The notes beneath the pieces were generated by a model. That model had not been told where the DNA came from. It saw nothing but the letters and a program-made list of their open reading frames with translations, and searched no databases. A program made the translations under genes and the position numbers. From NCBI GenBank assembly GCA_029448655.1, contig JACCLO010000019.1:372001-436000 (forward strand): a DNA stretch of 64,000 nucleotides, given 5' to 3'. This DNA comes from Wolfiporia cocos. Its lineage: Eukaryota; Basidiomycota; Agaricomycetes; Polyporales; Phaeolaceae. Below, piece by piece: positions 948-44,900 of this stretch. Every line of letters starts with the position of its first letter. Position 1 is the first letter of the stretch.

Positions 948-1018
948 AAGGCCCCCGTATAGAACGACTGGAACAGGCTTTTCAGTTGGCAAGGGAGCAG
1001 TCGAACACGGTGCGCGCC

Positions 1019-1729
1019 TGTTACGGGTCGAATACCCGTTCGTATATTCGAGTCGCGAATATAGATCGTTCTTCTGCATGTAGGCACGTCGCCGTATGCA
1101 AGGCAAATACTCGTTAGATGCCTTCGGGTCCTAAGTGAAGTCCTTAGGAGATCGGTTAATATCCAATACGCGTTAGAAGATATAATCTGTTCAGGTGCGA
1201 GTCTGATAGAATATAAGACTCGCCTAAGTCCGAGAAGTCAGTGTGCACTTCGAGGACTTAGTCGTTCAGTTGCTCGAGCGAGAAATACTGAGCATAGTTT
1301 CCTATGTTTGAGAACGAGTATAAGACTTCTTGTTTGTACAACAAGGTCGAGCTGAAGAGCCTCGACAATAGGTACATTAGTTTATATACTACGTTGGGTT
1401 TCAGGGGTCAAGTCCGTCCCAGATATCACCGATACTATCTATGCTATAGTAGTAACAAATGTTTGATAGGTATGTAGTGATATACCTGAGACGATAGATA
1501 GGAATGATGGCGGTTGAACGCCATCTATCAGCTAACAAACGATGAACATGAAACGGTGGCAGAGTTGGATCTGCCAAAGATGAAACGTGCCCTATGGACT
1601 AGTACAACTGGGGATGCGCCCAGTAGAATCACGAGTAGCCAGGGGAGTTGGTTGTGCAACAAGTCCCTGTATCGTATTCGCCCAGTGGTGAGTTCTGTCG
1701 ATATTCGAAAAATCAAAATAACCGTAACA
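1019..1729 (-). repeat. 3' LTR of element 1 (family A)
   Basis: In element orientation it starts TGTTACGG at 1729 and ends CCCGTAACA at 1019, 711 bases. It lies next to a purine-rich tract, as expected for a 3' LTR. It lacks the 86-base internal duplication found in the 5' LTR at 15406-15577, so the pair has diverged or exchanged since insertion. Confidence 0.85.
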
Positions 1730-1745
1730 TCAGCCCCTCCCTAAG
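1730..1745 (-). promoter_or_regulatory. Polypurine tract of element 1
   Basis: On the minus strand this reads cttagggaggggctga directly upstream of the 3' LTR. That is the place and composition of the plus-strand primer of an LTR retrotransposon. It fixes the direction of the element. Confidence 0.7.
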
Positions 1746-2645
1746 CATTCGTTGGCCTCGACGAATTTTCCAAGTTCCCCTCTTCAGAGTGCCTCGGCGT
1801 CCTGTTCGTTGTAGATGTCGCCGTTCCCGCTGAGGGACGGGGTCGTAGGAGTTCGCCATACGAAGTGTTGGCAGCATTCATTCTGTCGATGACCTGGTTG
1901 ATTGAGCCCACAAGTTCTGCAAATATAATCGGGGCAGTCGAGGATCCAGTGGTTAGCGGAACCACATTCGACACGGCTGCTTGGGTGAGGGCCTCGCTGG
2001 TACCCGGAGGGAAGGGATATCACGGAGGTATTCATTATGTTGGTACCTCCAGTGGTGAGCGGCTCGGTGGAGGTTTCGTGCGGCCCATGTTGGTAGGGAG
2101 GCGGTGTCTCGTTCGTGCTCCCTCGCACCTCGCTCAAACTCCTCGCGGGTAATACTCTGCACTGAAGGAGATCATCGAATAGGCGGCGTGCTATTTGCTC
2201 TTCGTTATCGCGCTGGGGTATCCCTAGGGCTCGTCGGGCGTGCAGGTGGTTCACGTCTCCCGTTGCCTCCCATACCAGAAATACGTGGCGTCGAGTCTCT
2301 AACTCCTGTTTGGCGGGCCCTCTGAGTCCCGGTAGGCAACGGAAATAATACTCTATCACCCTCCATAAAATCAAATGGGCTTGCAACTCGGCAGTCGTTC
2401 GTCGGGGGTGAAAAAGCGGGCGGGTCGCGGTGTGTATTCGGGTCGACTGGGAGCAACGTGCTCGCGATCCTCGAAGTCGTTGAGCGCGTGTCGTAGTCGG
2501 GCCGTCGTAGTGGCGGCCAATCGGTCGATAAGTCTGTCAGTGAGTAGCTCGAGTCCCTCTCTCTGCGCTCTGATCTGCCCCTCCATTCGGACGAGGTCCT
2601 CGGTGATGTTCTGGTACGAGCTGTAAACGTGGGTAAGGTCCTGCG

Positions 2646-4313
2646 TAACACAAGATAACACTTACTTGTAATAGTTGCTTGGTTTTGCTGGTTAGGCAAG
2701 ATAGTTGACACAAGCGCAACCTTAAGACACACACCGGGGGAAGGTGGATCGCATGAAAGCGCCTTCCTGGTCCGGGCATCTCAAGGCACAAAAGGCCAAG
2801 ACAAGTCTGAGGTTTACGCTCAAGACTGTCCGGCATATATACTCCTAATCTATTTGTACATGTTTGTGTACAGTGGCTCAGAGGCCTCTACATACTGGTA
2901 TCTAACTGGCTATGAACTACGGGCCGGTAATGGCATCGGAGCGCTGGGGTTCGCGAGGATGTCCATGGCGACGTAGCATATAAGGGTCGGATCAAAGGAG
3001 TAGCCAATCTATCGGGTTCGATCAGTGGTTCTCGTCGATCGTGGGTGCGCCGGTAATGGCGGGGTTCTAAGTCCGTGATCGGGCGTGGTCTGCCGCGATC
3101 GGGGTCGTGACGTCATAATGACCGGTGGTCCTCGTCGGTCGGGTCTATGCCAGTAATGGCGGTGGTGATCGGTAGGTTACGTCAATCGGGGTTCTATCAG
3201 TGGTTCTCGTCGATAGGGGTTCTGCCGTGCCAATGGCAGGGTTTATACAAGGTGTGGTCTGGGAGCGCGCGAGCGATCCATGTTCCCAAAGGGTTACGTA
3301 CTAAAGGTCGATCGTTCACGATCCTAGGTTCCGAGGTTCTTGGTACTGAGGAGTGGCAGGAGCGTGGACGCGTAGAGTGTAGGTCTAGTGCCTGTAATGG
3401 CATGGGTTCATGGAGACGGGAGGCGTAGGGTTTGGTTGGTTGGGTGGACGTGGTTTAGTCCTAGCCGTAAGTCTTGGTTAGCGTGAGCCAAAGGTCAGCT
3501 TAACGTGAGCCAAGGGTCGGCTTAGCGTGAGCCAAGGGTCATGTGACTTGTGTGGCTTTATATTGGACTGGACGTGGGGTCCGGGACTAGGGTTCTTAGG
3601 CGTGGCTGGCGATGCTGTTAGCTAGTGCCCGTAGTGGTACATACGTAGGGCTTGGATCTGGCTGAGGCATCGGGTTCCCAGCTTCGGGGGTGCTCTCGGC
3701 AGTCGGAAGAGGTACTGTGCCTAAAGGCTTGAAATTGGCGTGTGACAATAGTTGTAAGAGTTAAGCAGGATACGCGGAGTGGTTAACTCGTAGTATGAAT
3801 GCAATGAATAGAACTGAGGCAATAGCGCTCAGCAAGTCCAGTATATATACATGATAAATAAGACCCCTAACAGTCCTTTTAGATAATACTAATGTCAGTA
3901 TTCGTATGTACAAGTCCCCAGATACCTAAGTACTTAGTAATATGCGATAAATACATATACCGATCAAAACCGGGATATAGGAAGGCGGCATAGGCCGCAC
4001 GAATGGCGTTTTGCGCTCTTTGTCATTACAAAGACGGGGCGTGACCAAAGCCCGGTCCGCTGACGTTCATACGCTGACTGCTTCCGGACGGAATGTCCGA
4101 TTGGCTAGAACTACACATGTGACTGATGGTAACTACTAGTGATAAGATAAGACCGTTGTTACGGGAGATAACGCGGCCATCATTCGGCACGTATGTAACC
4201 GTTAACTTATGAACCAGATAAGCTAGTTATTGGTCTAGAAAGTCGTAGATAATTCGTAGAATTGTCAGAAAAATAGTAAGAAATATCGGGAAACTAGGAG
4301 AATTCTTGTGACA
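2646..4313 (-). mobile_element. Solo LTR of family G inside element 1, itself interrupted
   Basis: It is flanked by the 5-base duplication ctgcg (2641-2645 and 4314-4318). On the minus strand it starts TGTCACAAG and ends CTTGTGTTA. Without the nested LTR at 2706-3747 it is about 621 bases, the same length as the family G LTR at 39701-40321. It splits the third ORF of element 1. Confidence 0.85.
2706..3747. mobile_element. Solo LTR of family I nested in the family G LTR
   Basis: It is 1042 bases, starts TGACACAAG, ends GTGTGACA, and is flanked by atagt (2701-2705 and 3748-3752). Much of it is matched in inverted orientation by the copy at 21067-22644, which broke the epimerase gene. Short repeats of gcgtgagccaag occur near 3480-3540. 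There are no coding features. Confidence 0.85.
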
Positions 4314-4426
4314 CTGCGCGATGTCGAAGAGGGCCGACCAGCCATCAGCTTGGCCAGCAAAAGGTCCCTCGGCCCTGTACCAGAGGAGGGCGTGTCTAAT
4401 CTGCAGATGCTGGGGGGAGTACCTTC

Positions 4427-4776
4427 TTGGTGGCGTACCTCGCGGTCGGCCTTCTCGACGATCTGCATCGCCGGGGGTCGTGGTACGGCGGGGGAGCTGG
4501 TGGCGAGTTGTCGACATACTATTACTGTCCTGTTTTCGAGTGTTGGGGTTGTCCTGACTCTCGTCCTGTGGTAGTCTTTTATCAGCTCCTTGGAGTGCTC
4601 CAAGTTCCCCTCGTCTTCCCATGAGTTGTCGGCCGTGGCATAGCCTTTCCACTTGACGAAGTATTGATGCTTCTTTCTTTGCCATCTGTCAGCCAAGATG
4701 GCTTTGACTTCGTATTCTTCTTGTCACTTGATGATATCAGGTGGCGGCCGTAGGTAATTGGGTCCGTGTACCCTTG
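4427..4776 (-). pseudogene. Chromodomain at the Pol C-terminus of element 1
   Basis: The minus strand reads HGPNYLRPPPDIIK, then an in-frame TGA (4724-4726), then a chromodomain core including YFVKWKGY and NSWEDEGNL, with the aromatic residues expected of a histone-tail reader. In chromoviruses this module targets integration to marked chromatin. The frame joins that of the integrase once the insertion at 4777-7143 is removed. The TGA is consistent with a CGA arginine codon that lost its C. Confidence 0.85.
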
Positions 4777-5022
4777 TGTCACGGTTTTCTACCTGACGTT
4801 GGGACATGGTATTCCCCCGGGGTCGAACCCCGGTCCTCTTGGTTTCTAGTCACGTGTTAGGACTGTTAGATAGTGTAGCGGTTATCTTCCCTACCTTAGT
4901 TGTCACGTTACAGGGACACATGACATAGCTTAGTCAGCGGCATTGCGGAGCCGGCGCACGGACCTTTACTTTAGGGTCGGTACTTACAGTAGTACGGTGC
5001 GCGACACATGTATATAAGCTAG

Positions 5023-6924
5023 TGTCACGGATCACTCCTGGGGGGTATCTGTACATCCCTCGCTATTGGTATTCACAGGCGCCGCTAGGTGCGCGCGCGC
5101 CTTCCTGATCTTCAGCCACCTCCAGCGTCTCCTCCAGCCATATAGATCATCTGACTCAGTAGTTTAGCGCTGTAGGGTAGCGCGCGCCTCATCATACGGA
5201 CACATGATGGTCACATTAGTTACATGTTACGTTACGCTCCCGTGATCCCTTAGTTACGGCGCACAGGCCATTACATTAGGGTAGGATTCGTGCTCTCAAC
5301 GTTCATGCATGTATATATACGACAAGATGGTGGCCTTACAGCCCCATCTTTAGGATTCTCGTCAATGAGCTAACGCTCCTTTCTTATCCTCTGTCTGCGT
5401 GCGCTCGGGCCCGGGGCCCCTCTCGACTAGCTTGTCTGTGTGCCAGCTCAACTCGTCGCCTCTTAGGAGTTCCCCCATGGGATACAGCCGACGTCGCGGT
5501 CTTGCTGGCTTGCGCACCGCCTTGTTAGGCGTTAGGGCCTCCCCAGATGCCTGGGTCCTCACAGACTGGTAAGTCTGTGACATAATCCTAAAGATATTTA
5601 CTCTCCCCTCCGACGCCAACTGCGTTGGGGCCGAGAGGTTTCCACCTACAGGTCGCCATGGCAGCGTGGCGGGGCAGCCGTCGGTAGAAGCGCCGGCGGT
5701 CCGTAGCCTTACGAGCCCCCACGAAACGCTACACCAGGCAAAGCGACCGTAGGGAGTGAATAGACAAGACCGCCCCCCATGAACAACAGGGTAGCGGGAT
5801 CGACCAGGGTAAGCCCCGTTTGAGGACCCGCCGCCATCACCCCTGCAAAGGGAATGCATGCGCGTGTGGAGGTCTAGGGCACCTCGGCCATTATCCCTGG
5901 GCGGCAGGAGCGACTCAAGAACCTTGACCAGTGGGTATGCGAAGGGCTCCGCAAGGATGCCCAACCCCACAACGACCGGTCAACGCGATGAATATGGACA
6001 CGACGCCGACAGAATTGGCCTTTGGGTACGACGGACACGGGTGACAGGCACCCTCAGTGAGTAGCGGCTGGGAGCGACCCTTGCTGGCCGCGAAAACTTC
6101 AACAAAAAACCTAGCTACAAGGCTGTCCCTCTCGACTCGGTGAGTCTTGCCAACTCGATGCCGCGCTGGGTTGGCGTCCCCACCAGCGCGCGTCCTTTTC
6201 TCTTCAACCCTATCCGACGGACGGACCGTCAGAAAACCCGGATGCTCCCTGCTGCGATTGTGACAGGTGGTGCTGGCCCAGCAGTGCCGGGCTCTCTCTT
6301 AACCAACAGGAAGGGATGTCGTAGGACCAACGTCAGAGACGACGTTTTCTCGGAGGGGGGGTAATGTCACGGATCACTCCTGGGGGGTATCTGTACATCC
6401 CTCGCTATTGGTATTCACAGGCGCCGCTAGGTGCGCGCGCGCCTTCCTGATCTTCAGCCACCTCCAGCGTCTCCTCCAGCCATATAGATCATCTGACTCA
6501 GTAGTTTAGCGCTGTAGGGTAGCGCGCGCCTCATCATACGGACACATGATGGTCACATTAGTTACATGTTACGTTACGCTCCCGTGATCCCTTAGTTACG
6601 GCGCACAGGCCATTACATTAGGGTAGGATTCGTGCTCTCAACGTTCATGCATGTATATATACGACAAGATGGTGGCCTTACAGCCCCATCTTTAGGATTC
6701 TCGTCAATGAGCTAACGCTCCTTTCTTATCCTCTGTCTGCGTGCGCTCGGGCCCGGGGCCCCTCTCGACTAGCTTGTCTGTGTGCCAGCTCAACTCGTCG
6801 CCTCTTAGGAGTTCCCCCATGGGATACAGCCGACGTCGCGGTCTTGCTGGCTTGCGCACCGCCTTGTTAGGCGTTAGGGCCTCCCCAGATGCCTGGGTCC
6901 TCACAGACTGGTAAGTCTGTGACA
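5023..6924 (+). mobile_element. Complete miniature LTR retrotransposon, family E copy 1 (TRIM-like)
   Basis: Two LTRs of 560 bases (5023-5582 and 6365-6924), identical as far as I can read, flank a 782-base interior. The target duplication gctag sits at 5018-5022 and 6925-6929. The interior has a primer site (5584-5595) and a polypurine tract ggagggggggtaa ending at 6364. It has no protein I recognise, although a short open stretch (plus strand, about 6140-6364) is shared with copy 2 at 38907-39132. Identical LTRs imply recent insertion. Movement must depend on proteins made elsewhere. Confidence 0.9.
5584..5595 (+). promoter_or_regulatory. Self-priming site of family E copy 1
   Basis: AATCCTAAAGAT begins one base after the 5' LTR and is the exact reverse complement of ATCTTTAGGATT at 5346-5357. 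That 12-mer lies about 34 bases after the TATA box at 5312, where the transcript should begin. The arrangement is that of Tf1/sushi elements, in which the folded 5' end of the RNA primes reverse transcription. Confidence 0.8.
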
Positions 6925-7143
6925 GCTAGCGACTGAGGTCTTACAACCTCAGTCTTGTTATTGTCGACATTGGGGCGTGTCCCACAGCTATCTCCCTCTG
7001 CGTGCTCTGCTGGCCTCGCCATGCTTCTTAGCCTCTGGTCTTACTGAGTAGCCCTCATAGCCAGCGCCATTAGGACGACTTCGGTCCAAGACATTGCGTC
7101 TTGATCCTAGGGCATAAGCCGTACGTCGTGAATAACTGCGTCA

Positions 7144-9434
7144 CCTTGTTTCGTTGAATGGCTTTAGTAAGGCAGCGTGGAAGACCGGATGAATTTTCCA
7201 ATTCGCCGGTAACTGCAGCCGGTATGTCGTGGGTCCCATCTTTTCTGTGATGGTGAAGGGTCCTTCTTTTTTTGGTGCCAGTTTGTTCGATTCATAGGGG
7301 ATCGTTAGGTTCTTGGCGTCGAGCCAGACCTTATCCCCTTTCTCAAGCTTTGGCAGTTCTCTGAGGAACTGCCCTGCCATTCTTTTCTGGGCTAATTCAT
7401 GCGCGATGAATGCCATTTTTCACACCTCTTTGATCTTCTTGATCCTGTCGACCGCTGCCGGGACGTTCCCTATTCTGTCATAGTCTGGGAATCTTCTCGG
7501 GACGTATCCTAAGATCATTTCGAGTGGCGCTGGCCGGTTTTCGGTTCGTCTGGTGTTGTGCGCAAATTCGACGTCAGGCAGTCGTTGTACCCATTGGAAC
7601 GGGTCATTCATGCAATAGATACGAAGGTATACTTGACACAGATGGCTCTGTGGGACTCACCAAGCCAGTATCCTTGCGATGAACTAAGGCGACTAGGTGA
7701 GGTAGAGGTTATCAGACGCAGCAGGAGGTAGGAGGTTCTTCTACGGCGTATGCCGAGAAGAATAGAACTGAAGTTATAGGCCGTCAAGGCCCTACTTATA
7801 TACACATATATAACGGGTCATGTGCTACTGTATAGTGCATGCCCGATAAGGAGTGTGGGCTTGGTTGCCATAAGGGCGACCAAGTGGTATGACTACTCTA
7901 CAAAGGCCGTGGCCCGCCGGTAATGGCCGGGCCAATGGTAAAATAGAGAGCGTGTGGTCTCATCGTAAGATGGACATGTGAAGACGGGCGCAGCCCGGGT
8001 ATAAGGGATGCCGGTTGCCGGATACCGTGAGGTATAATGGCGATTGGCCGGTCATCGTGTGCTGACCAAGGCGGAACGCCGAGGTCGTAATGCTATTGGG
8101 CCAGTAGGCACCGTAGCATGTGATATGTCCGGACCGGAAGGTAACCGGAACATATGGTGGTCTTAGCCATGAGGCGAGGACTGGTGTTTGGGCAACGCCG
8201 TGATGGCAGAAGCCCGGGACTTGGAGAACGCCGAGTCCGTGGGATGGCCGAGAAGGCCGAGCCTATAGCAATATTGCCTTGGTGCTAATATAGTGCTATT
8301 TGGCCGTGTTGCCATTATTATGCGAAGGCGTGGCGCGCCTGAGGTGCCATTGTGATCGAGGATCTTATGGCGGTGGGAAGCCGGGAAGGCCGACCCAATA
8401 GTACAAGGCCGCGAGGCACTGTTTGTACATGTGGACATTATTATGCGAGCGTGCCGCGCTCGGCCTATCATTATGATCTAAGATCTATGACGTGGCTGGT
8501 CTTGCTCTGACGGGCGAGACCATATGGTTTGGCGTTAGCCAAGCGTTAGCTTAGCGTGAGCCAAGGGTTACACTTAGCGTTAGCGAGGCGTGAGCCAAGC
8601 GTGAGTGGCGTAGACGACTTGTAGTTAGACGTATAAATCCCAGGTAAATTGCTATAATCATAGGAAAAATGCTGTAAGCCCCAGATAAATCTGTGACAAT
8701 ACTTCGATCTGTTGGTTCATCCTTTCCGTTTGTCCGTCCGTCTGGGGATGGTATGCTGTACTCATTGCTGACTCCTTTCCCTGCAGCTTGCACAATTCCT
8801 TGAATAGTTCTGATGCGAATTGTGGTCCCCTGTCCGAGATGATTTTTCGGGGGATGCCGTACTGTGAATATATCTTTCGATGGAATATTTCTGCGGCCCC
8901 TTCGCTTGTAATTGTTTTGTCGCATGGGGTGAGAGAGATGGCCTTGGATAGGCCATGGTCGACAATCACCATCATGGAGTCATACTTTCCGACTCTTGGC
9001 AGGTCGGTGACAAAATCGACTGAGCACTGTGAGAAGGGGAGGGCGTCTTCCCATGTCGGTATTGGTTGCAAAGGGGGTTTTAGCGGATTCCTATCAGGTT
9101 TCATCTGTTGACAGATTGCATAGCCCCTGACGTATTCCGCTATCATTGTTCTCATGTCGGGCCACCAAAAGTGGGTCGGAACCTGTACTGTTGTACCCCA
9201 GATCCCAGGGTGTCCGGCCGGGATCGTGTCGTGGTATTTTGAGATGACGTCCCGTCGAAGGCCCTCGTCCCTTGGCACGTACATCCTGCCCCTGTAGAGC
9301 AGTATTCCATCCGTTTGTTGCCATTCATCTGCGGTGGTTCTCGCGGGGAATTTGCCTGTGCCCCCTAGAGCACGGATCGCCTGTTCCGCAGATTCATCTC
9401 GATTGTTGGTGTTCTTGATTCGATAATGATCGGG
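7144..9434 (-). pseudogene. Integrase of element 1
   Basis: This is the catalytic core of a Ty3 integrase: DFVTDLP, IISDRGPQF and STAYHPQTDGQTERMNQ carry the D, D and E residues. The N-terminal zinc site keeps its histidines (AGHPG) but reads GYAICQQ where GC-x2-CQQ is usual, so the first cysteine is tyrosine. A solo LTR (7634-8698) follows the QTERMNQ motif, and the C-terminal part (EKGDKVWLDAKNL, HPVFHAALLKPF) continues to 7144. An in-frame TGA lies at 7420-7422. The link to RNase H needs a frameshift near 9435. Nonfunctional. Confidence 0.85.
7634..8698 (-). mobile_element. Solo LTR (family D) in the integrase
   Basis: It is 1065 bases, flanked by atact (7629-7633 and 8699-8703). It starts TGACACAGA with hairpin CACAGA-tggc-TCTGTG and ends CTGTGACA. 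A TATA-like tract near 7796-7812 and the following gttctattc, read on the minus strand, resemble the promoter end of families G and B, which suggests minus orientation. No coding features. Confidence 0.85.
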
Positions 9435-10820
9435 ATCTGGATTGCGTGGACGACGAGTTCATCTGGGATCATGGTGATTCCCTCGTTGTCTTCGTTGCTT
9501 TCGTCCAGGTGATACAACCTGGACAGTGTGTCGGCCATGACTAGTTTCCTTCCGGGGACGTGTTGTAACTTCAGGTCGAATTGCAAGAGGAATAGATGCC
9601 ATCTCGCTTGTCGCCGATTTAGATGCTGTGCGCTTCTCCAGTACGTCAGGTTCTGGTGATCACTTCGGATCAAGATCCGATGCGGTGCTCCTTCTAACAG
9701 GTGCCGCCATTCTTCTAAGACTCGGACTATTCCGAGTAGTTCGCGATCGTAGATTTCATAGTTCCGTTCTGTAGATGTCAAGGACTGTGAGAGATATCCC
9801 ACCGGCCGTTCGCGCCCTGTTTCATCTATCTGTTTCGGTACTGCTCCTGTGGCGAACTGAGATGCGTCTGTTTCGAGGATGAACGGTTTCTCCTTGTCTG
9901 GTGTTCCTAGTGCGGGCGCCGTCGTGAATGCTTTCTTCATGAATTCGAATTCTTTCTCTGTCCATTGGAACCCTGTCCCTGTGACCGTTTTTGTGAGGTC
10001 TACCAAGGGTCGGGCGTGCGTAGAGTAGTGATCGATAAATTTCCGATAGAAGTTCGCAAATCCTAGGAAGGATCTGACTTCTTTGAGATTTCAGGGAGTC
10101 GGCCACTCCTTAATCCCATTGAGTTTCGCGGGGTCCATCTGGATATTTCCTGGGGTGATGACTAGTCCCAGAAATTCGACTCTGTCGACACCGAAGGCGC
10201 ATTTCTCGGGTTTCACAAAGAGATGGTTATCCATCAATCTCTGAAGGATCCGCCGCTCCCGTTCCTTGTGTATTTTCTCGTCTTCTGAGAAAATGAGGAT
10301 GTCGTCCATATAAACAAGCACCCATCCTTCGAGGATTTCTGCTTTCAGGATTTCGTTCATCATTGCCTGAAAGGTCCCGGGTGCATTGCACAATCCGAAA
10401 AATATAACCGTGGGCTCGTACAACCCTCGGTTTGTTTTGAAGGCTGCTTTCCATTCGTCTCCTTTTTTGATTCACACGTTGTTGTATCCCGCTTTAAGGT
10501 CCATTTTTGTGAAGATCTTTGCTCCTTTTAGCTTTTCCAGGAGCTCTGAGATCAGTGGCAAGGGATAGACGTTCGTTCCTTCGTTCAGATATCGATAATC
10601 TTGACAGGGTCGTAGGCCGCTGTCTTTCTTTGGAACGAAAAAGAATGGTGACGCCATCGGGGATTTTGAAGGGACTATGAATCCCTTGGCCAAGTTTTCT
10701 TTGAGGAATTCGTCCAGCGCCTGTTGCTCTTTAGGCGAGAGTGCATAGACTTTGCAGTCTTTCGGCACAAAATCATGTTTTAATTCGATTGCGTGGTCCC
10801 ATGGTCCCGACGGGGGAACG
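9435..10820 (-). pseudogene. Reverse transcriptase and RNase H of element 1
   Basis: RT motifs run in order: [44 protein letters not shown] and the catalytic VYMDDILIF. RNase H follows with ETDASQFATGA, ERNYEIYDRELLG and MADTLSRL. Two in-frame TGA codons interrupt it (10472-10474 and 10091-10093). The first falls where element 2 has arginine in the aligned segment YNNVRIKEGDEW, so it is most simply a CGA-to-TGA change. Frameshifts sit near 10815 (a run of C) and 9435. It made the cDNA copy of the element in the cytoplasmic particle; it cannot now. Confidence 0.9.
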
Positions 10821-11253
10821 CTGCTGCGGACTCCTTGCTGAACACCTTGGCAAAGTCCAGTAGGTGCTTCGGGACCATCTCCTCAATCGTTCGTTCTGGT
10901 TCGGGGGTTTTCTGTGCGAATTCTTGGGATTTCGTCAGCGCTTTCCTGACAGCGTTGATGATTTGTATTCTTGTTCGGAACTTCTTTCGCGTCTCCCCTT
11001 TCTTTCCTATGATCCTAGGGTTATCTTTTGCAAAGTGTCGGATCGCTTCGTACTCCTCGGGAGTATAGAACCGCTGTGCTGTTTCTTCTGGCTGGTCCGT
11101 GGATCCAAACCCCTTCTCCCCTTGTTCTGTTTCATCTAGGTCTTCGACCTCTATAATGTCGGGGGTGAGGTGCCGTTCGAAAATTATCTGGGCTATTTGC
11201 ATGCCCGGGATAAATATATGTGCTTTGGCTGAGTAGTTGAAGACGATGGCTCC

Positions 11254-11496
11254 TGTCACAGATTATACCTGTAAAGGCATCTGGACGTTACGGAGTAATT
11301 AACTAGGGTATACGGAGGGAATACGTGGGTATAACCTGAACAAGGCTACCTATAGACGCTAAGCGTGGGAATCTGAACTGCAGATATAGCCAGACCCTTG
11401 ATAACAGCCAAGCTGTTATCGTAGCCCTTTTGGGGGAGTGGTCTATAACACCACTCATAAGCGCGTTGCATTGGGTCCGCTGCGCGTCTTGTGATA
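11254..11496. mobile_element. Short solo LTR-like insertion (family J) in the dUTPase
   Basis: Only 243 bases, it starts TGTCACAGATTATA and ends CTTGTGATA, flanked by gctcc (11249-11253 and 11497-11501). It lies between dUTPase motif 3 residues GDVGAI and VFNYS. Its size is small for the LTRs here, so it may be a truncated LTR or another small element with a 5-base duplication. Confidence 0.7.
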
Positions 11497-11632
11497 GCTC
11501 CGACGTCTCCTCGGTAGTCCGAGTCTATGACTCCAGCTTGTACTACCAATCCGTGTCTGAGGGTGTTGCCTGATCGTCCAGCCAGCCTTCCATATGATCC
11601 CTTCGGGATCTTCATTTTGACTCCTGTGGAGA

Positions 11633-12251
11633 TGTCACGGTGACCACCGTGCCACCCGCCCCAGCGGGGAACCCCTATATCCGCCTCATCTCTAATGCCT
11701 ATAGCCCCCCACCCTCCTAACGGCGGAGAACAAGAAGGCGCTCCTGTTGAGGAGCCCTGCCGTATTGCACAGACTAGCAGGTAAAGATAAAAGAGAGAGT
11801 ATGGATGTAATGAATAGAGGCCCCCACGCCCAAGTAGGATGCAGCAGGCTTTGTCGACGAGGACCCTGCACGCAGAGACAAGCAAGCAAATGGTATATGA
11901 AAAGGTTGCCAGGGGACGCGCCCCCAACGACGAGAAGATAAGTTCTGAGGAGTACCTCAGAACGCTACCTAGTATATATACATGTGGACGCATACTCCTA
12001 TAGCTACAAGACCTGCCCTAATGGCATGGTCTGTGCACACTGTGACTACGCTGCACATGACTAAGTAACGATCGTGACTCCAGTGACGTACCACGTGACC
12101 TAAGTAAGAGATAAGATATGAGAAGCTTATCTATTTCCCATGCACGTGCAATTCCGGGCGGCTAGGTATAACGTAGCGAATGTCTGTGGATAAGTGTTAG
12201 CCAAGGGTGAGCCAAAACGTAAACCCCTTTATTCCGGAATTTCTTGTGACA
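11633..12251 (-). mobile_element. Solo LTR, family B copy 1, in the dUTPase
   Basis: It is 619 bases, flanked by ggaga (11628-11632 and 12252-12256). It starts TGTCACGGTGACCACCGTG (hairpin CACGGTG-ac-CACCGTG) and ends TTTCTTGTGACA. It is the same family as 13666-14293 and 33187-33843 and lies between dUTPase motifs 1 and 2. Confidence 0.85.
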
Positions 12252-12755
12252 GGAGACGAGTTTCCATCCCCCGGCGGGAATCTCGGTTTCTTCTGCGGCG
12301 TAAAGGTCATACCCTGCAGCTTCTTGGGTCCCCCTTGTTGGAATTTTCCCTTCTGGGGCAACTACCATCCCCACTGTATCCATTCGGATCGTGGCTTCCT
12401 GTTTCTTTTCTTCTGGCCCTAGTATTGATCGTACATCGACTGTTTGGTCCATTGTGGGGTTTTCGTCTTTTAGCCATCCATACCCTAGAATCATATTCTC
12501 TGTTCCGATTGATGATCCTACCAGGAATCGGACTTTTCGCGTTTTCTGGGTCTTCGGATATCGTAGTAGTATGGTAGCTTCTCGGTTTATTCGCCCATCT
12601 TTGTTTTCTGTTCCGTCAACATTTTTGACGATGATCGGGTTCTTCAAGGGTTGCGTGGGCACCTTGTATTTTTCTACCACTCTGCTGTGGATCAGGTTTG
12701 ACATTGCTCCTGAGTCGATTAGTGCATTGCACTTCACGGGTTTTGCCAACATCAT

Positions 12756-15314
12756 GATTACCGGGATGAAGAGGGATTGATTCTTCTCGAACGAGGTAAT
12801 TACATGTGCTGCTTTCTCGGAGGGTAAGACCGTGGGCTTCCCTCCTAGGCAAAATTCTGTTCTTCTACGAGCCGTGCTAGGAGCTCGGGGTTCTTGGCTT
12901 TCAGAGCCCTAATTGCTGTGACCGCTCTGTTAGCAGTGATGTATTCAGTCTCTTCCTCAGAGACTTCTTTGATGCGAGCTTCTTGCTCGGCTTCTTCTTC
13001 TTCGGTCTTTCAAGTAGTCCGCCTAGGGCGGGCTGGCTTCCTCGGCCTCTTTGGGCAGTCTCGCGACATATGCCCTGGCTGATGACAGGTGAAACACTTT
13101 CCCTTCTTGATGTGATCGTCCCTTTCCTGGGTGGTCATTCGATCTACATCCATCGCGTTCGGATCTTTCAGTGCGGTTGTCTGTGGAGCACTAGTGCGTC
13201 CGCCGTTCTGGTTCGAGGCTTGCCAAGCCTTTTTCTTCTTGACAAACGGTTTATCCCGTTTCAAGAATATCTTGTACGTATTTTCATAGTACGAGGCAGC
13301 GGACTGCCTTTCATCAATGGTCGCTGGTAGCGGCCGAACGCCGATGATGTATCGGGTCGTATGTTCGGGTAACCCTTTCTCGAAGAGGGTTATGAGCAAT
13401 GCGTTTCCGTCCGCGCTGTATCGATCGTACTGGGCCTTTCTGGCCAAGTTGTTGAACTCGGTGATATAATCATCGATGTCCTTTCTGTCCTGGGTTACGT
13501 CCAGGATTTTCTTCCGTGCCTTCTGTACCTCTGCGATGGCTCCGAAGGCTTTCTGGAAGTCTGCATCAAACTGTGCAAGACTAGGCGGGAAGAATTGTTT
13601 CGTCTGGGGGTTCGTATAAACCCGGTGATAATTCTGTTTCCATTGGCCCGTTTTCCCCTTGTTCGTGACACGGAAACCATCCGTGCCACCCGTCCTAACG
13701 GGGAACTCCTATATCCGCCCTATCTTATCTCCAATAGCCTCCCACCCTCTATATGGCGGAGAACAAGAAGGCACCTCTATTGAGAGGTCCTGCCGTATTG
13801 CCTGAGGTACCGACCCATGAGTGTACCGGTACGCCCCCAGACTAGCAAGTAATAGAGAAGAGACTAAGACGAATGCAATGAATAGAAGCCCCCACGCCCA
13901 AGTAGGACGCAGCAGGCTTTGTTGTCAAGGACCCTGCACGCGAAGACAAGCAGCAGAGGGATAATAAAGAGGTGACCAGGGGACATGCCCCCTAGGCCAA
14001 AATCTTAAGTCTGAGGAGTAATCCTCAGACGTCGCCTGTATATATACATGTAGAGACCCCCTAGCTAAGACTTTTTGTCTACCCTAAAGAGACGGTCTGT
14101 GCACAATAAGAATCATGTGAGTACAGAGGTAACTAGGTAACGTGCTACTCAAGATGCTACAACGTGACCGTATGAAAGCGAGATAAGATAAAGACTTTTA
14201 TCTACCTATGCACGTGATACCTCCAGCGACGATTTTCAAGCCTAGAAATCGGAATATAAATCGCAAAAGAAGGGAAATATATTTCTTGTGACAGTTCGAA
14301 ATATAAGAGAGGATAAAGATCACTCTCTGATCGTCGTTCTGGAATGACGTTTCGTACATCGTAAACCAGGAATTGCACTAGTTTATGAAGTTCTGCATAT
14401 CGTTCCCCGTCAAATACGTCCGGGGGATTGATCTTTATCATTGGGGGTCGGTAGTACGGGTTCGGCGCCGGAGGTTGAGGCTGCGGCGCATTCGGTGGTG
14501 GAGGCCCTCCTGGGGGTCCTCCTCCTCCCGGGTATCCTCCACCCGGGTTTCCTGGGTTTCCTCCGGGGTTCCCTGGGTTCCCTCCAGGGTTTCCTCCTCC
14601 GGGGTTCGTGGGGGTTCCTCCTCTGAGTCCTCCAGGAGGGGGGGCATTCCCTCCTCCGAGTCCGAAGTTTCCTCCCAGTCCTCCTCCACTTGTACCTGCG
14701 GAGGTTCGTCCAAATAGGCCTGAAGGCCATGTTCCTGGGTTTGCCGTTCCCATTCCTCCGCTTGGGCTAGTCCAAGATGGATTTCCTCCGCTACCCATTC
14801 CGGGTGCGTTCTGTGGGGGGTTTCCAAAGAGGTCTGTTCCTCCAGCCATAGGCCCAATCCCACTCTGCGCAAAAGCAGATATAAATCCTGGAGGGTCCTG
14901 TCCTCCGGTCTGGCTGTTATCTGTTCCTGTAAAATTTCCAGGATTTCTTCCGATGCGCTCAATTCCTGCCATTCCTGTGGCGCCCAAAGGCTGATTCGTA
15001 TTTCCATCGGCATCGAAGATTCTGTTGATGGTTTCGGTTTCGTTTTCGGTCAACATCGCGGTTGACATCGGAGGGATTTCTCCGAATCGTTCGAACACTT
15101 CACGCATTATTTCCCAAGCGGTCGTTCTTGCGGAGGGGTATACTTCTACCCATTTTGATGCCCTATCTTCTCTTGGAATGACAACAATTCCTCCGCGGTT
15201 ACGGAAGGCTCCAATGGTGTCAGTCCACTCGTATCGGTGGAGTCTGTTTACTCCCTGAATGTCCTCGGGCAAGAGTTCAATCAGTCGTGCTGGGAATTCT
15301 GGTCCAAATATCAT
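12756..15314 (-). pseudogene. Gag of element 1
   Basis: It starts at ATG 15314 (MIFGPEFPARLIELLPEDIQ), 35 bases inside the primer site. The first 250 residues lead into a glycine-proline-asparagine low-complexity tract (14480-14660), then a capsid-like stretch that a solo LTR splits at 13666-14293. A CCHC zinc knuckle, CFTCHQPGHMSRDC, lies at about 13060-13100 and should bind the genomic RNA. The frame closes at 13010. The remaining about 250 bases to the protease carry stops in every frame, so this part is decayed. Confidence 0.75.
13666..14293 (-). mobile_element. Solo LTR, family B copy 2, in gag
   Basis: It is 628 bases, flanked by gttcg (13661-13665 and 14294-14298). It starts TGACACGGAAACCATCCGTG with hairpin CACGGA-aacca-TCCGTG and ends TTTCTTGTGACA. 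On the minus strand a TATA-like tatatata near 14041 precedes promoter-end sequence shared with the other two copies. Confidence 0.85.
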
Positions 15315-15348
15315 GGGCCCTTACACCGTGATAGGTGAGGGTGTGATA

Positions 15349-15359
15349 AGCTCGACCTT
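15349..15359 (-). promoter_or_regulatory. Self-priming site of element 1
   Basis: On the minus strand AAGGTCGAGCT starts one base after the 5' LTR and pairs over 11 bases with AGCTCGACCTT in that LTR (15762-15772). That segment lies about 33 bases downstream of its TATA box. The length, spacing and position match Tf1-type self-priming. No tRNA-type primer site is seen. Confidence 0.75.
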
Positions 15360-15360
15360 C

Positions 15361-16139
15361 TGTTACGGGTCAAATACCCGTTCGTATATTCGAGTCGCGA
15401 ATATAGATCGTTCTTCTGCACGTGGGCGTATAGCCATAGGCAAGGCAAATGCTTGTTAGATGCCTTCAAGTCCTAGGTGAAGTTCCTAGGAGATCGTTCT
15501 TCTGCACGTAGGCACATCGCCGTATGCAAGGCAAATACTCGTTAGATGCATTCGGGTCCTAAGTGAAGTCCTTAGGAGATCGGTTAATATCCAATACGCG
15601 TTAGAGGATATAATCTGTTCAGGTGCGAGTCTAATAGAATATAAGACTCGCCTAAGTCAGTGTGCACTTCGAGGACTTAGTCGTTCAGTTGCTCGAGAGA
15701 GAAATACTGAGCATAGTTTCCTATGTTTGAGAACGAGTATAAGACTTCTTGTTTGTACAACAAGGTCGAGCTGAAGAGCCTCGACAATAGGTACATTAGT
15801 TTATATACTACGTTGGGTTTCAGGGGTCAAGTCCGTCCCAGATGTCACCGATACTATCTACGCTATAGTAGTAACAAATGTTTGATAGGTATGTAGTGAT
15901 ATACCTGAGACGATAGATAGGAATGATGGCGGTTGAACGCCATCTATCAGCTAACAAACGATGAACATGAAACGGTGGCAGAGTTGGATCTGCCAAAGAT
16001 GAAACGTGCCCTATGGACTAGTACAACTGGGGATGCGCCCAGTAGAATCACGAGTAGCCAGGGGAGTTGGTTGCGCAACAAGTCCCTGTATTGTATTCGC
16101 CCAGTGGTGAGTTCTGTCGATATTCGAAAAAACGTAACA
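15361..16139 (-). repeat. 5' LTR of element 1 (family A)
   Basis: It is 779 bases, starting TGTTACG at 16139 and ending CCCGTAACA at 15361 in element orientation. It is longer than the 3' LTR because an 86-base segment is present twice (15406-15491 and 15492-15577, diverged copies). On the minus strand a TATA box at about 15800 and the presumed RNA start at 15772 read towards gag. Confidence 0.85.
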
Positions 16140-36670: not shown

Positions 36671-37190
36671 AAGGCTCCAACCATATAATATACATGTACA
36701 GAAAATTATGGTATATGGTATATACATAGTATATACATAGTATATACATGGTTTACATGGTTTTTGAATGGTACATTTTTTAGACATCTTGGCATAGCCA
36801 TTGCTTTGCCCATATAGCTATGGAGATTGTCTTTTCACGGTTTCTCTTATTTTTCCCTATTTTTCCCTATTTTCTCTGATTTTCTACAGCTCGTACTACT
36901 CGCTCTCCAAGTCACGTTATGTCTTATCTTATCTCACTCTCGTAGATAACTCTTATCTTATCTCTTGTGCACGTTAGCTCAGCGCCTATCATGGCGCCTC
37001 GTCATATCTGTAGACTTATCCTGCACGTGACCCTACAAAGAGTTCACAACATACGTTGCCACACGTCACATGGCTTTCTAGTGACTCACATCACCTGCCA
37101 CTGCCTCTCGCTCAGTCAGCGGCCTAACTCACGTCACATGCTGTAGCCTTACGCTCAGTCAGCGACCTACTGAACTATCACAAGCTTCGG
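36671..37190. repeat. Repeat end matching 54262, then unassigned AT-rich sequence
   Basis: taaggctccaaccatataat at 36671 matches the left end of the element at 54262 (taaggctccggccatatgat). Tandem gtatatacata units follow at about 36715-36750. The right end of this copy is not found; the sequence runs into a family G LTR. Nothing else is recognised to 37190. Confidence 0.5.
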
Positions 37191-39700
37191 TGTCACAAGA
37201 ATTCTCCTAGTTTCCCAATATTTCTTACTATTTTTCCGGCAATTCTACGAATTATCTACGACTTTCTAGACCAATAACTAGCTTATCTGGTTCATAAGTT
37301 AACGGTTACATACGTGCCGAATGATGGCCGCGTTATCTCCCGTAAAGACGGTCTTATCTTATCATTAGTAGTTACCATCAGTCACATGTCTAGTTCCAGC
37401 CAATTGGACATTCTGTCCAGAAGCAGTCAGCGTATAAACGTCAGCGGACCGGGCTTTGGTCACGCCCCGTCTTTGTAATGACAAGAGCGCAAAATGCCAT
37501 TCGTGCGGCCTACGCCGCCTTTCTATACCCCAGTTTTGATCGGCATATGTATTTATCGTATATTACTAAGTACTTAGGTACCTGGGGACTTGTACATACG
37601 AATATGGACACTAGTATTACCTAATAAGACTGTTAGGGGTCTTATTTATCATGTATATATACTAGACTTGCTGAGCGCTATTGCCTCAGTTCTATTCATT
37701 GCATTCATACTACGAGTTAACCACTCCGCGTATCCTGCTTAACTCTTACAACTATCCTGCCTAACCAGCAAACCAAGCAACATTACAAGTGTCACGGATC
37801 ACTCCTGGGGGGTATCTGTACATCCCTCGCTATTGGTATTCATAGGCGCCGCTAGGTGCGCGCGCGTCTTCCTGATCCTCAGCCACCTCCAGCGTCTCCT
37901 CCAGCCATATAGATCATCTGACTCAGTAGTTTAGCGCTGTAGGGTAGCGCGCACCTCAGGTACGAACACGTTACGGTCACAGTAGTTACATGTACGTTAC
38001 TTGTCATGTGCCTCTTAGATAATGCGCACGGGCCATTACTTTAGGGCACGACTCGTAGTTACAATCGTCATGTATATATTACGTCGAGATGCGGGCTTAC
38101 ACCCCATCTCTCAGATTCTAGTCAATGGGTTAATCCCCTTTCTCGCTATCTCGTCTGTGTTACTGCTGGCCCGGGGCCCCATCTTCTCTTCCTTGACTGT
38201 GATAGCGCCTTCGACGTCAGGGCACCTCGCGACTCTGTCGCTTGGATGGACCTTTGAGTACGCCGCTGCGCGTCGTTGCTGCCTTGTGGAGGGCTGTGGG
38301 AGTTCCCCATGTAGCCATGGTCGCACAGACCGGTGAGTCTGTGACATAATCTGAGAGATATCTTACCTCCCCTCCGGCGCCACCTGCGCTGGGGCCGAGG
38401 GTTCTCCACGTACAGGGTGCCATGGCAACGCGGCGGGGCAGCCTCTGGTAGAAGCACCAGAGGTCCGTAGTCTTACGAGCCCCCACGAAGCGTTACACCA
38501 GGCGAAGTACCCGTGCGGAGTGAGTAAGCAAGACCGCCCCCTTTCGAACGCAAGGTAGAAGGGGTCGACCGACGTAAGCCCCGTTTGAGGACCCGCCGCC
38601 GTCACCCCTGCAAAGGGAATGCGCGCGCGTGTGGAGGCACAGTGCAGTCTGACCACTTACCCCTGGGCGGCGGGGATTACTCAAGAACTGATGACCAGTG
38701 GGTATGCGAAGGACTCCGTAAGGATGTCCAACCCCACAACGACCGGTCAACGCGATGAATATGGACACGACGCCGACAGAATTGGCCTTTGGGTACGACG
38801 GACACGGGTGACGGGCACCCACAGTGAGTAGTGGCTGGGAGCGATCCTTGCTGGCCACGAAAACTTCAACAAAAAACCTAGCTACAAGGCTGTCCCTCTC
38901 GACTCGGTGAGTCTTGCCAACTCGATGCCGCGCTGGGTTGGCGTCCCCACCAGCGCGCGTCCTCTTCTCTTCAACCCTATCCGACGGACGGACCGTCAGA
39001 AAGTCCCGGGTGCTCCCTGCTGCGATTGTGACAGGTGGTGCTGGCCCAGCAGTGCCGGGCTCTCTCTTAACCAACAGGAAGGGATGTCGTAGGACCAACG
39101 TCAGAGACGACGTTTTTTCGGAGGGGGGGTAATGTCACGGATCACTCCTGGGGGGTATCTGTACATCCCTCGCTATTGGTATTCATAGGCGCCGCTAGGT
39201 GCGCGCGCGTCTTCCTGATCCTCAGCCACCTCCAGCGTCTCCTCCAGCCATATAGATCATCTGACTCAGTAGTTTAGCGCTGTAGGGTAGCGCGCACCTC
39301 AGGTACGAACACGTTACGGTCACAGTAGTTACATGTACGTTACTTGTCATGTGCCTCTTAGATAATGCGCACGGGCCATTACTTTAGGGCACGACTCGTA
39401 GTTACAATCGTCATGTATATATTACGTCGAGATGCGGGCTTACACCCCATCTCTCAGATTCTAGTCAATGGGTTAATCCCCTTTCTCGCTATCTCGTCTG
39501 TGTTACTGCTGGCCCGGGGCCCCATCTTCTCTTCCTTGACTGTGATAGCGCCTTCGACGTCAGGGCACCTCGCGACTCTGTCGCTTGGATGGACCTTTGA
39601 GTACGCCGCTGCGCGTCGTTGCTGCCTTGTGGAGGGCTGTGGGAGTTCCCCATGTAGCCATGGTCGCACAGACCGGTGAGTCTGTGACAACAAGTAAGTG
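37191..39700 (+). mobile_element. LTR of family G, interrupted, abutting a second copy
   Basis: It starts TGTCACAAGAATTCTCC and is about 605 bases without the miniature element at 37790-39689. It lacks the last about 15 bases of the family (ttatcttgtgtta) and is followed immediately by the family G LTR at 39701. The simplest reading is that element 2 inserted near the end of this older LTR and the missing end lay on the far side of element 2. Confidence 0.7.
37790..39689 (+). mobile_element. Complete miniature LTR retrotransposon, family E copy 2
   Basis: LTRs of 557 bases (37790-38346 and 39133-39689), identical by eye, are flanked by acaag (37785-37789 and 39690-39694). The primer site AATCTGAGAGAT (38348-38359) is the exact complement of ATCTCTCAGATT at 38106-38117, after the TATA box. 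A polypurine tract gagggggggtaa ends at 39132. The LTR ends in CACAGAC-cggtga-GTCTGTG. There is no coding capacity beyond short shared open stretches. Confidence 0.9.
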
Positions 39701-41993: not shown

Positions 41994-44900
41994 ATGGTGT
42001 CTTACACAATCGTCCAAGGCGCTTTGTACAACACCCACAAGGTGGCTACGGCCTACCGCCCCGCCGTCGGCAAGCACGCGTGGCCCGGAGAGCAAACTTG
42101 CTTGATGGACTACCTGCGAGTCGTATTCGGCATCAGAGTTAGGGGGAGTGTCACCTCCTTCAACTCAATTCCGGCGCATGTGCGCCCATTCCTGAACGTG
42201 AACCACACGGCGTACATCAAGTACTACGGGGAAGATTCGACCAGGAATCACATATCGTGGTGGAGGTGGGACAATTACTGCACCGCCATCCCCCTGTCGG
42301 ACCTCATAGTCCTGTACGGTGACGTCCACTGGTACTCACATGGAAGAAGCGTCGCCACGCACGAGAGCCGCCAGGCTCTTCAACCCGGAAACACCCGCAC
42401 GCCGAGCAGTCAGTCACCCCCGAAGGCAGCGAGACTCCACGGCCGGAGGAACCAGTCAACACGGAGCCCCTATTTGGGACGCTCCCCGATCTCCTCCCCT
42501 CCTATGAAAGGGGAACCTCTGGAAATCGTCGCGCAGCCGGAAAGGAGCGAGAACGAATTGACGGGAAGGTTGCAGTGCACTCTGGAAGTGGCCGCCTCAG
42601 ACGAAGTTCTGCAGGTGGGAAAGGAAGCTTACATGGAGGCGCTGTACCAAGCCAAAAACCATCTCTACAGCAACCTCGCGGCCTACAAAGGCTGGGTGGA
42701 CACGGATTTGGAAATGGTCTGGAACAAGACCAACCAGATCTGGAGCCACAACCAAGTGCTTCAAAATAGAATCGAAGCACTAGAGGAAGCGGAGAGTTTA
42801 CAGCAACAATTGGACACCCTTTGTCACAAACTTACTGTTTGTGAGGACCTGCGCTGCAGGGGAATCCTACCGTGCCTAGCGAGGCTTGTGTGCGACCACG
42901 ACAGCGGTGACCGAGTCGGCTGTACCAAGGGCAGCACCAACCCGAGGACTCCTAACGGCGACGTAAGGTGGCGGCACACAGTCAAGCGCGACAAGAGAGG
43001 CCCCCGGGGCAGAGACGCATCACGCGCAAATAAGAAAGGGGCCTAAGCCCAAACGACTAGAATCTCAAAGATGGGGGAGTAAGCCCCCATCGCTGCAGTA
43101 TAAGTACATGTGTTGGAACGCTAAGTATCTAGCCTGCCCTACAGACATGGCCTGTGCGCATGTAACGTAAGCGTGACCGTACAAGTAACGTAACATGTAA
43201 CTATATGGTGACCTATCATGTGAGTACCTGGCACGCGCGCTGCCTGACTAGCGCGCGCCTACTGGGTCAGGTGATCTTGGAGGTAACTAGGGCGCGACCG
43301 AGAGGAAACGTAAAGTGAGCGGGGCGCGCGCGCGTGCAGCGGCGCCCATACAACAATAGGAAAGGGATGTACAGTAGCCCCTCGGGCATATCCGTGACAT
43401 TACCCCCCCTCTCAAAAAAAGTCGTCCCGACTTTCTACCTAGCTTCTACGGCGCTACATCCCTTGGTCTTTATTTATGCACGGCCCATTCTTACTTGACG
43501 GAAGATGGGGAGCGTCCGCGCAGGTGGACCGTCCACCGGTGGGAGAGCGGAGGAGTTGGTTTCGGTATCGGTTCGGCATTCGTCGCTGAGGTTACTGGGT
43601 TATTTTTTAAATGGGGTCCCCGTCGTCCCCGTGTGCCTCCGCTTGCCTAATCCCGACATCGTCGTCGCGGTAGTCCGTACTGAACCTTCATCACTCTGAG
43701 ACCGTCGGCGTGGGGTTGGGTAACCCTTGCGGGCCCCTTCGCATACCCACAGGTCAGAGGTTCTTGGCTTGGCTCCTGCCGCCCAGGGGTATGGCCGCGC
43801 TGCGCTAGACCTCCACGCGCGCGCACATTTGGTTAATGGCGGCGGCGGGCCCTCAAACACGGCTTACGCTGGTTGACCCCGCTACCCTGTTGTTCATGGG
43901 GGGCGGACTTACTTTTTACTCCTCCTGGTCGCTTTGCCTGGTGTATCACTTCGTGGGGGCTCGTAAAGCTACGGACCACCGGTGCTTCTACCGATGGCTG
44001 CCCCGCCGTGATGCCATGGCGACCTAGGAGTGAAAAACCCTCGGCCCCAGCGCGAGCGCCGGAGGGGAGGTAAAACATCTTTGAGATTATGTCACAAACT
44101 TACTGTTTGTGAGGACCTGCGCTGCAGGGGAATCCTAACGTGCCTAGCGAGGCTTGTGTGCGACCAGCGACAGCGGTGACCGAGTCGGCTGTACCAAGGG
44201 CAGCACCAACCCGAGGACTCCTAACGGCGACGTAAGGTGGCGGCACACAGTCAAGCGCGACAAGAGAGGCCCCCGGGGCAGAGACGCATCACGCGCAAAT
44301 AAGAAAGGGGCCTAAGCCCAAACGACTAGAATCTCAAAGATGGGGGAGTAAGCCCCCATCGCTGCAGTATAAGTACATGTGTTGGAACGCTAAGTATCTA
44401 GCCTGCCCTACAGACATGGCCTGTGCGCATGTAACGTAAGCGTGACCGTACAAGTAACGTAACATGTAACTATATGGTGACCTATCATGTGAGTACCTGG
44501 CACGCGCGCTGCCTGACTAGCGCGCGCCTACTGGGTCAGGTGATCTTGGAGGTAACTAGGGCGCGACCGAGAGGAAACGTAAAGTGAGCGGGGCGCGCGC
44601 GCGTGCAGCGGCGCCCATACAACAATAGGAAAGGGATGTACAGTAGCCCCTCGGGCATATCCGTGACACCCTTTCCGAAAATCGGTCCATCCGCATAGAA
44701 AAAGATATTGCAGTACTGCAAAAGCGTCCGGCAGTCCCAACCGCGGGACCCAGCGGTGCCCAGGTCACGGCACTAATTAATAGAATTGACCAACTCGAAG
44801 CGGAGTTAACCGCTCTAAAAAACGCACCAGCAGCCGCGACAGCAGCTGCCACAACGGTCAACTTCCAACAGACCAAACCGACTCAGCCGCCCAAATTCTC

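Follow-up and report, generated by a model that had tools for sequence, protein, structure and literature searches.

Self-priming elements and gene-less LTR retrotransposons

Tf1/sushi elements commonly self-prime, according to the relevant passages of PMC10085805 and PMC6317226 and, for Tj1, of PMC4600332. In these chromoviruses, which include Tf1/Tf2 of Schizosaccharomyces pombe, Tj1, and Tosmo1-3, the primer lies at the 5' end of the RNA and pairs with a PBS just inside the 5' LTR (PMC10085805, passages on Tf1). The resulting Tf1 fold, known as the 'pretzel', consists of a central primer:PBS duplex and two duplexes joining PBS-adjacent and LTR sequences, the latter downstream of the primer; in the same passages of PMC10085805, its support comes from work on Tf1 and inspection of a few relatives.

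A second group of relevance comprises the TRIM elements of plants, ants, bivalves, and fungi, which are short, have no recognized genes, and carry two direct terminal repeats, a PBS-like site, and a polypurine tract. In the passages of PMC6934838 that define them, TRIMs are shorter than 1 kb, with repeats of 100-250 bp and a PBS complementary to tRNA; where that source discusses PBS-less bivalve TRIMs, it mentions Tf1-type self-priming and proposes no mechanism. Non-coding LTR elements of the TRIM and LARD classes have also been recorded in the genomes of Boletales, likewise basidiomycetes, and the passages concerned give their abundance and no priming mode (PMC5689174). A self-primed TRIM was not found in the literature searched, in which subscription papers were mostly outside coverage.

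Here, we analyze family E, whose copies were noticed in a 64,000-nucleotide stretch of the Wolfiporia cocos genome (the window). From its sequence, family E is very probably a ~1.9 kb non-autonomous LTR retrotransposon that starts reverse transcription by Tf1-type self-priming. The novelty is one of combination: a known mode of priming in a known type of parasite, with unusually rich natural covariation. Family E resembles Tf1/sushi elements in the pairing of a sequence at the presumed RNA start with a PBS adjacent to the 5' LTR, and in PBS-adjacent duplexes formed with LTR sequence downstream of the primer. It differs in having at least eight primer types together in one family, in having no room for the gag-pol that Tf1/sushi elements encode, and in the length of the primer, which is 12 nt, as compared to 11 nt in Tf1.

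Anatomy of family E

The window holds three complete copies, with LTRs of the form TGTCAC...GTGACA and a G-rich polypurine tract and TAA ahead of the 3' LTR: copy 1 (5023-6924, LTRs of 560 bp), copy 2 (37790-39689, LTRs of 557 bp), and copy 4 (44668-42822 on the reverse strand, LTRs of 579 and 578 bp). Their features, together with those of a solo LTR of the same superfamily, are as follows; a further LTR-like stretch lies at 21194-21773.

5023..5582, forward: copy 1, 5' LTR (TGTCAC...GTGACA), TSD GCTAG
5312..5319, forward: copy 1, TATA-like box, its first base 34 nt before the presumed RNA start
5346..5357, forward: copy 1, putative self-primer 12-mer ATCTTTAGGATT at the presumed RNA start
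5361..5364, forward: copy 1, second long-range duplex (predicted), 5' arm, partner 5578-5581
5383..5387, forward: copy 1, third predicted long-range duplex, 5' arm, partner 5569-5573
5560..5579, forward: copy 1, local hairpin at the LTR end, competing with the long-range arms
5578..5581, forward: copy 1, second duplex (predicted), 3' arm at the LTR terminus
5583..6364, forward: copy 1, internal region of 782 bp without recognized protein
5584..5595, forward: copy 1, PBS AATCCTAAAGAT, one nt inside the LTR end
5602..5636, forward: copy 1, conserved hairpin directly past the PBS
6352..6361, forward: copy 1, polypurine tract, followed by TAA and the 3' LTR
6365..6924, forward: copy 1, 3' LTR
37790..38346, forward: copy 2, 5' LTR, with primer at 38106-38117
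38348..38359, forward: copy 2, PBS AATCTGAGAGAT
39133..39689, forward: copy 2, 3' LTR, TSD ACAAG
44090..44668, reverse: copy 4, 5' LTR, with primer at 44341-44330
44077..44088, reverse: copy 4, PBS AATCTCAAAGAT
42822..43399, reverse: copy 4, 3' LTR, TSD AAGGG
58315..58901, forward: solo LTR of the same superfamily as family E, primer ATTCCTAAGATT, TSD CTTGT

The initial annotation had claimed that, in these three copies, 12 bases at the presumed RNA start pair perfectly with 12 bases just inside the 5' LTR, and its letters and coordinates proved exact. The perfect reverse complements are 5346-5357/5584-5595 in copy 1, 38106-38117/38348-38359 in copy 2, and, on the reverse strand, 44341-44330/44088-44077 in copy 4, the PBS starting one nt past the terminal CA of the LTR. 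When the leader of copy 1 was base-shuffled 20,000 times, the reverse complement of the 12-mer never arose at the PBS position within the first 60 nt.

Genome-wide, 49 elements were measured, with the search limited to LTRs of 500-660 bp and internal regions of 600-900 bp; their LTRs span 548-605 bp and their internal regions 690-803 bp, for a total of ~1.9 kb. With those limits lifted, a second LTR was found at a period of 1318-1387 bp for the main PBS sites in 50 loci (L001-L050), which span only ~1.5 kb each, limiting the detection of longer relatives. Identical 5-bp TSDs flank 42 of the 49 elements, and 38 of 49 have LTR pairs without mismatch (three of these 38 differ in length by 42-56 bp); because of these mismatch-free pairs, most copies are taken to be young. 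The longest ATG-started open reading frame in the 40 internal regions listed encodes 136 aa, and no frame common to the subfamilies was found among them; frames recurring within a subfamily were a 92-aa frame on the minus strand (L001, L002, L003, L005, and L009) and a 97-aa frame on the plus strand (L017, L021, and L045). The long minus-strand frames of copies 1 and 2 were considered as a coding remnant and rejected, being differently placed and without a Pfam match in the two frames scanned. Judged by the length and place of reading frames and these two Pfam scans, family E is a young, apparently non-autonomous family.

Several features of the surroundings were recorded. Copy 2 is flanked, at gaps of 10-15 bp, by LTR-like direct repeats of another family (37190-37774 and 39700-40285) that are 94.6% identical. 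Around copy 4 (window 41922-48327) lie frames resembling gypsy parts, namely RT/RNase H and a capsid-like match below cut-off. Contig C17 (183192-183752 and 193179-193733) holds a near-identical second copy of parts of the window, with the insertion site of copy 1 identical, which is either a duplication or an uncollapsed contig.

Primer and PBS across the genome

The genome searched comprises 64.4 Mb in 76 contigs (64,431,438 bases; longest contig 5.29 Mb), the window lying in contig C11. A DNA search with the leader returned 30 loci; together with the window copies these make 33 rows, 31 of which match at 12/12, in a set that is partly redundant (L004 repeats copy 1, L003 shares its flanks, and L029 and L030 lie in one array). 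A pattern for the PBS context gave 224 genome matches as opposed to 11 for its reversed control; among the first 30 loci, 28 carry a perfect 12-mer at a distance of 237-275 nt upstream from the main site. Among the 100 PBS-context matches listed, a ninth PBS type, AATCTGAAGGAT, occurs at one site.

A second sample was picked by the junction of polypurine tract and 3' LTR and so was not chosen by the 12-mers. The junction pattern has 150 matches in the genome and none in the control; 60 places were taken from the 100 listed of these 150, one of which (L120) falls in L013 again. The motif GTGNCATAA is present in 55 of the 60, and 54 of these 55 pair perfectly, while in the remaining element (L103) the matching 12-mer lies further upstream, pushed away by an insertion. 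The motif was not found in the fetched stretch of five regions (L066, L067, L097, L118, and L119), a count that would include any PBS changed in its first bases.

Pooling the motif records reduced 128 to 100 distinct segments, 92 of which have a readable 12-mer at the R start and a PBS that starts with AATC. The eight rows dropped are L043 and L103, where inserted LTRs displace the matching primer, and six loose-motif hits without the AATC start, one of which has 8 mismatches. The covariation seen at first in three copies held when copies were gathered in this way: the primer:PBS match is perfect in 90 of the 92 distinct segments, in eight primer types (ATCTTTAGGATT, ATCTCTCAGATT, ATCCTTGAGATT, ATCTTTGAGATT, ATTCCTAAGATT, ATCCTTAAGATT, ATCTCTTAGATT, and ATCTCTAAGATT), and every PBS fits its own type. 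The types differ from one another at 1-4 positions and each matches only itself, bearing out the earlier statement that the 12-mers vary among copies with the partner altered to fit. All eight PBS types start with AATC and are complementary to the element's own RNA start. Copies with intact LTRs and unpaired 12-mers were looked for, and the only misfits among the 92 are L016, with one mismatch from a point mutation in the PBS, and L026/L049, with 4 mismatches and a mosaic 5' LTR, the matching 12-mer being kept in the 3' LTR.

The mean mismatch over the 92 segments is 0.054, compared to 2.17 when the PBSs are re-dealt, the lowest of 2,000 shuffles being 1.74; the shuffles leave relatedness in, and eight self-matching types are a fairer count than copies. 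The selection patterns demanded that the R 12-mer read AT........TT and that the PBS open with AATC, which makes constancy there partly a matter of construction, and the free test is given by positions 3-8 of the 12-mer, unconstrained on both sides. A TAT[A/T] motif starts 30-35 nt upstream of the 12-mer in 87 of the 92 segments, and from this spacing we infer that the RNA starts at the 12-mer.

Fold of the leader

We aligned 45 diverse leaders (alignment A1), including the two misfits, and scored the proportion of paired cells. In the primer:PBS helix, 99.3% of cells are paired, and 5 of the 12 pairs have changed on both sides. The other 7 pairs give no covariation signal because primer positions 1, 2, and 9-12 are invariant and position 6 varies only as a mismatch; part of this constancy stems from the selection patterns. 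RNAalifold draws the primer:PBS helix unprompted, as does the single-sequence fold of copy 1, whose leader reaches a predicted -121 kcal/mol as compared to -96.1 for shuffles (s.d. 4.4; z -5.6). Over the whole tested structure, 98.5% of cells are paired, as opposed to 26.8-46.4% in slid controls. The count of pair types is not above that of shuffles, having been reached by 479 and 420 of 500, and these shuffles leave relatedness in.

The RNAalifold fold also contains a second duplex, in which the bases from 4 nt past the primer onwards (G, T/A/G, C, A/G) are predicted to pair with the LTR terminus (TG, A/T, C). At its variable position, the 92 segments have T-A in 50, A-T in 39, G-T in 2, and A-A in one; the pair is thus a standard one in 91 of 92, the sole misfit belonging to the mosaic LTR of L049. 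In A1, where the duplex occupies columns 18-21:302-305, 99.4% of cells are paired, with U-A in 22 rows and A-U in 21. Four of the eight primer types include both states, and the switch is thus independent of the primer. A third duplex of 5 pairs has 95.1% of cells paired and three pairs changed on both sides; both this duplex and the second were picked from a fold of the alignment on which they were scored, with relatedness retained. The hairpin past the PBS is paired in 99.0% and 100% of cells in its two parts. As a whole, the predicted fold is similar to the Tf1 'pretzel'.

A local hairpin at the LTR end (97.4% of cells paired) covaries at one pair, changed on both sides, and competes with the long-range arms, since its bases overlap those of the second and third duplexes. 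Folded singly, copy 1 favors this hairpin, and the RNA may therefore have two states.

Separately, the third base from the LTR end (GTGACA/GTGTCA; A1 column 304) covaries with R and not with the LTR start, despite lying at the end presumed to be recognized by integrase.

Putatively self-priming gypsy families in the same genome

Copy 1 lies inside a larger element that, by the same test, also carries a self-primer:

1018..16131 (approximate), reverse: damaged chromodomain gypsy element with nested inserts, copy 1 inside; putative primer/PBS AGCTCGACCTT / AAGGTCGAGCT

Its primer lies 413 nt ahead of a PBS one nt inside the LTR, and the two pair at 11/11. Pfam matches above cut-off were obtained for Chromo, RT_RNaseH, and Integrase_H2C2, and RVT_1 was not matched in the pieces scanned. 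With chromodomain, RNase H, integrase, and self-primer in one LTR pair, the element classifies as a putative chromovirus, and this LTR pair suggests that all its pieces belong to one element. Seven other LTR copies of the family were fetched, four of which extend into the PBS; three of these are perfect and one has a single mismatch. At 12162-12908 (reverse strand), the chromodomain element also shows a dUTPase match barely above the Pfam cut-off (34 residues), adjoining a protease match below cut-off.

A chromodomain search gave 1126 candidates, with 150 scored hits. A second, abundant gypsy family (C1:1334321 onwards) has open frames of ~2,250-2,285 codons and LTR ends TGTCAC...GTGTCA. Its sequence CACCCC followed by the primer AGACTCGTCTT sits 105 nt ahead of GTGTCA, a T, and the PBS AAGACGAGTCT. 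Among three 5' ends read, two (L131 and L134) match, and one (L132) has a single changed primer base; the 20-mer spanning LTR and PBS has 189 exact occurrences. Single folds of both gypsy families pair the LTR terminus with bases just beyond the primer. In two more gypsy pieces (L133 and L135), a self-primer was not found within the stretch fetched.

Both gypsy families have much in common with family E: LTR starts of TGT(T/C)AC, a PBS one nt inside the LTR, a G-rich polypurine tract, and the use of their own RNA-start sequence, here an 11-mer, as the likely primer. The abundant family further shares the TGTCAC...GTGTCA ends, the CACCCC before the primer, and the 5-bp TSD. Unlike family E, both are protein-coding, and their primers and LTRs are unrelated to those of family E. 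A blastn comparison of the LTR and leader of copy 1 with the LTR of the abundant gypsy gave nothing better than E 2, and the sole hit of the internal region against the gypsy pieces was copy 1 itself within the window element. No protein-coding element with family E primers was found. Any of these gypsy elements could be the protein donor for family E.

Recombination and upkeep of the match

When 51 elements were compared, certain pairs proved 0.97-0.99 identical in U3 yet 0.77-0.79 in R-U5, while sharing primer and PBS (e.g., L050/L059 and L017/L034). Both members carry the same primer in all 76 pairs with an R-U5 identity of at least 0.90 and in all 62 with a U3 identity of at least 0.95; at a U3 identity of at least 0.90, primers differ in 25 of 156 pairs, and U3 and primer are therefore not always linked. 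Across the genome segments, primer, LTR-end base, and post-PBS sequence occur in 17 combinations. Three elements (L026, L028, and L059) have clearly unlike 5' and 3' LTRs inside matching TSDs. In L028, the difference is confined to R-U5, U3 having one difference, and the PBS matches the 5' LTR in L059 and the 3' LTR in L026. Such unlike pairs fit template switching in reverse transcription, or later gene conversion.

The primer/PBS match persists while the surrounding sequence changes. If strong-stop DNA were transferred to a foreign RNA, some mismatches should remain, and these are hardly seen. The initial annotation had called the matched changes compensatory; the partners do match, but the word may mislead, as a self-primed element may re-copy its primer into the PBS in each cycle. 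The changes were not necessarily selected singly; the PBS may receive its sequence from the primer during reverse transcription, and upkeep of the match probably reflects this copying, selection, or both. We put forward only tentatively a more specific account, which we consider somewhat less likely than its failure: that at least eight self-matched pairs coexist in one active gene-less family, that block exchange swaps R-U5 and internal sequence while the primer-PBS match is kept, often with U3, that re-templating from the primer, and not point-by-point selection, keeps the PBS matched, and that the recombination map shows the steps of self-primed reverse transcription in nature.

Proposed mechanism and alternatives

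In the proposed mechanism, the family E RNA would begin at the 12-mer, and its first 12 nt would fold back over 237-275 nt onto the PBS just inside the 5' LTR. This fold would be held by the post-PBS hairpin and by the second duplex, in which G[T/A]CA, its first base 4 nt past the primer, pairs with TG[A/T]C at the end of the LTR. A gypsy element of the same genome would supply reverse transcriptase/RNase H in trans; RNase H would then cut after nt 12, and the reverse transcriptase would extend the primer.

Self-priming, as first suggested for the window copies, is the best reading of a match that is perfect in 90 of 92 segments of eight types, of a second duplex that covaries, and of gypsy families with the same layout. 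The 12-mers might instead form a structural stem for another RNA role, such as packaging, dimerization, translation, or stability, with priming effected by, e.g., an internal part of a tRNA. The leader is indeed strongly structured (z -5.6) and has more conserved hairpins; however, the 3' arm sits at the obligatory PBS place, one nt past CA, in each of the eight types and also in two gypsy families whose 11-mers are unrelated. A PBS that starts with TGG marks the tRNA 3' end, whereas the PBS types here start with AATC, and eight PBS sequences would require eight outside primers, all of which makes a purely structural role very unlikely. For the AATC start and the eight PBS types, priming by tRNA was itself judged unlikely.

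Still less likely, in our estimation, is that the match is an echo of descent without present function, the primer having been copied to the PBS in each cycle, selected or not. Copying would account for the perfect match in young copies of all eight types and for a PBS that still matches where near-identical U3 regions (0.97-0.99) accompany differing R-U5 (0.77-0.79), but copying of primer into PBS is itself self-priming, and the second duplex, which lies wholly inside the LTR and could not be made by that copying, covaries too. Least probable of all is an ordinary inverted repeat inherited from a small number of founder lineages, in which independent changes would be too sparse to carry information. 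The types number only eight, and near-identical copies are many, so that copy counts overstate the support; against this, the types differ at 1-4 positions with each matching only itself, both states of the second duplex occur within four primer types, and 17 combinations of primer, LTR end, and post-PBS sequence exist.

Family E among Tf1/sushi and TRIM elements

Family E appears to work like the Tf1/sushi elements without itself being an autonomous member. The sequence at its RNA start, as placed from the TATA spacing, is complementary to the PBS adjacent to the 5' LTR, and duplexes are predicted between PBS-adjacent sequence and the part of the LTR downstream of the primer; a Ty3/gypsy RT of its own, another Tf1/sushi feature, is absent from internal regions of at most 803 bp. 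Release of the primer from its own RNA by RNase H, a further trait of the group, is proposed for family E as well.

The initial annotation had named family E a coding-less TRIM. The description holds for the two LTRs, PBS-like site, and polypurine tract without recognized coding capacity, but the ~1.9 kb length and LTRs of 550-600 bp (548-605 bp in the elements measured) exceed the TRIM size of <1 kb with repeats of 100-250 bp given in the defining passages of PMC6934838, and the PBS, which matches the element's own RNA start, is probably not tRNA-like. Family E is therefore best described as TRIM-like, and not as a strict TRIM. Self-priming had also been thought unusual, which is true for a TRIM but not for this genome, where two gypsy families self-prime by the same test.

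The 92 distinct natural segments, in eight types and out of 224 pattern matches in the genome, amount to a mutation series, with covariation in the second duplex as well as in the primer:PBS helix. They suggest that a gene-less parasite may carry its own primer, needing no tRNA and only the proteins of its partner, and the natural pairs are ready material for asking whether the PBS is re-templated from the primer.

Family E also occurs in tandem arrays of 2-4 LTR-internal units with a period of 1346-1374 bp, at C5:1590614-1595471, C1:740318-743813, C4:198901-201053, and C7:519307-521498.
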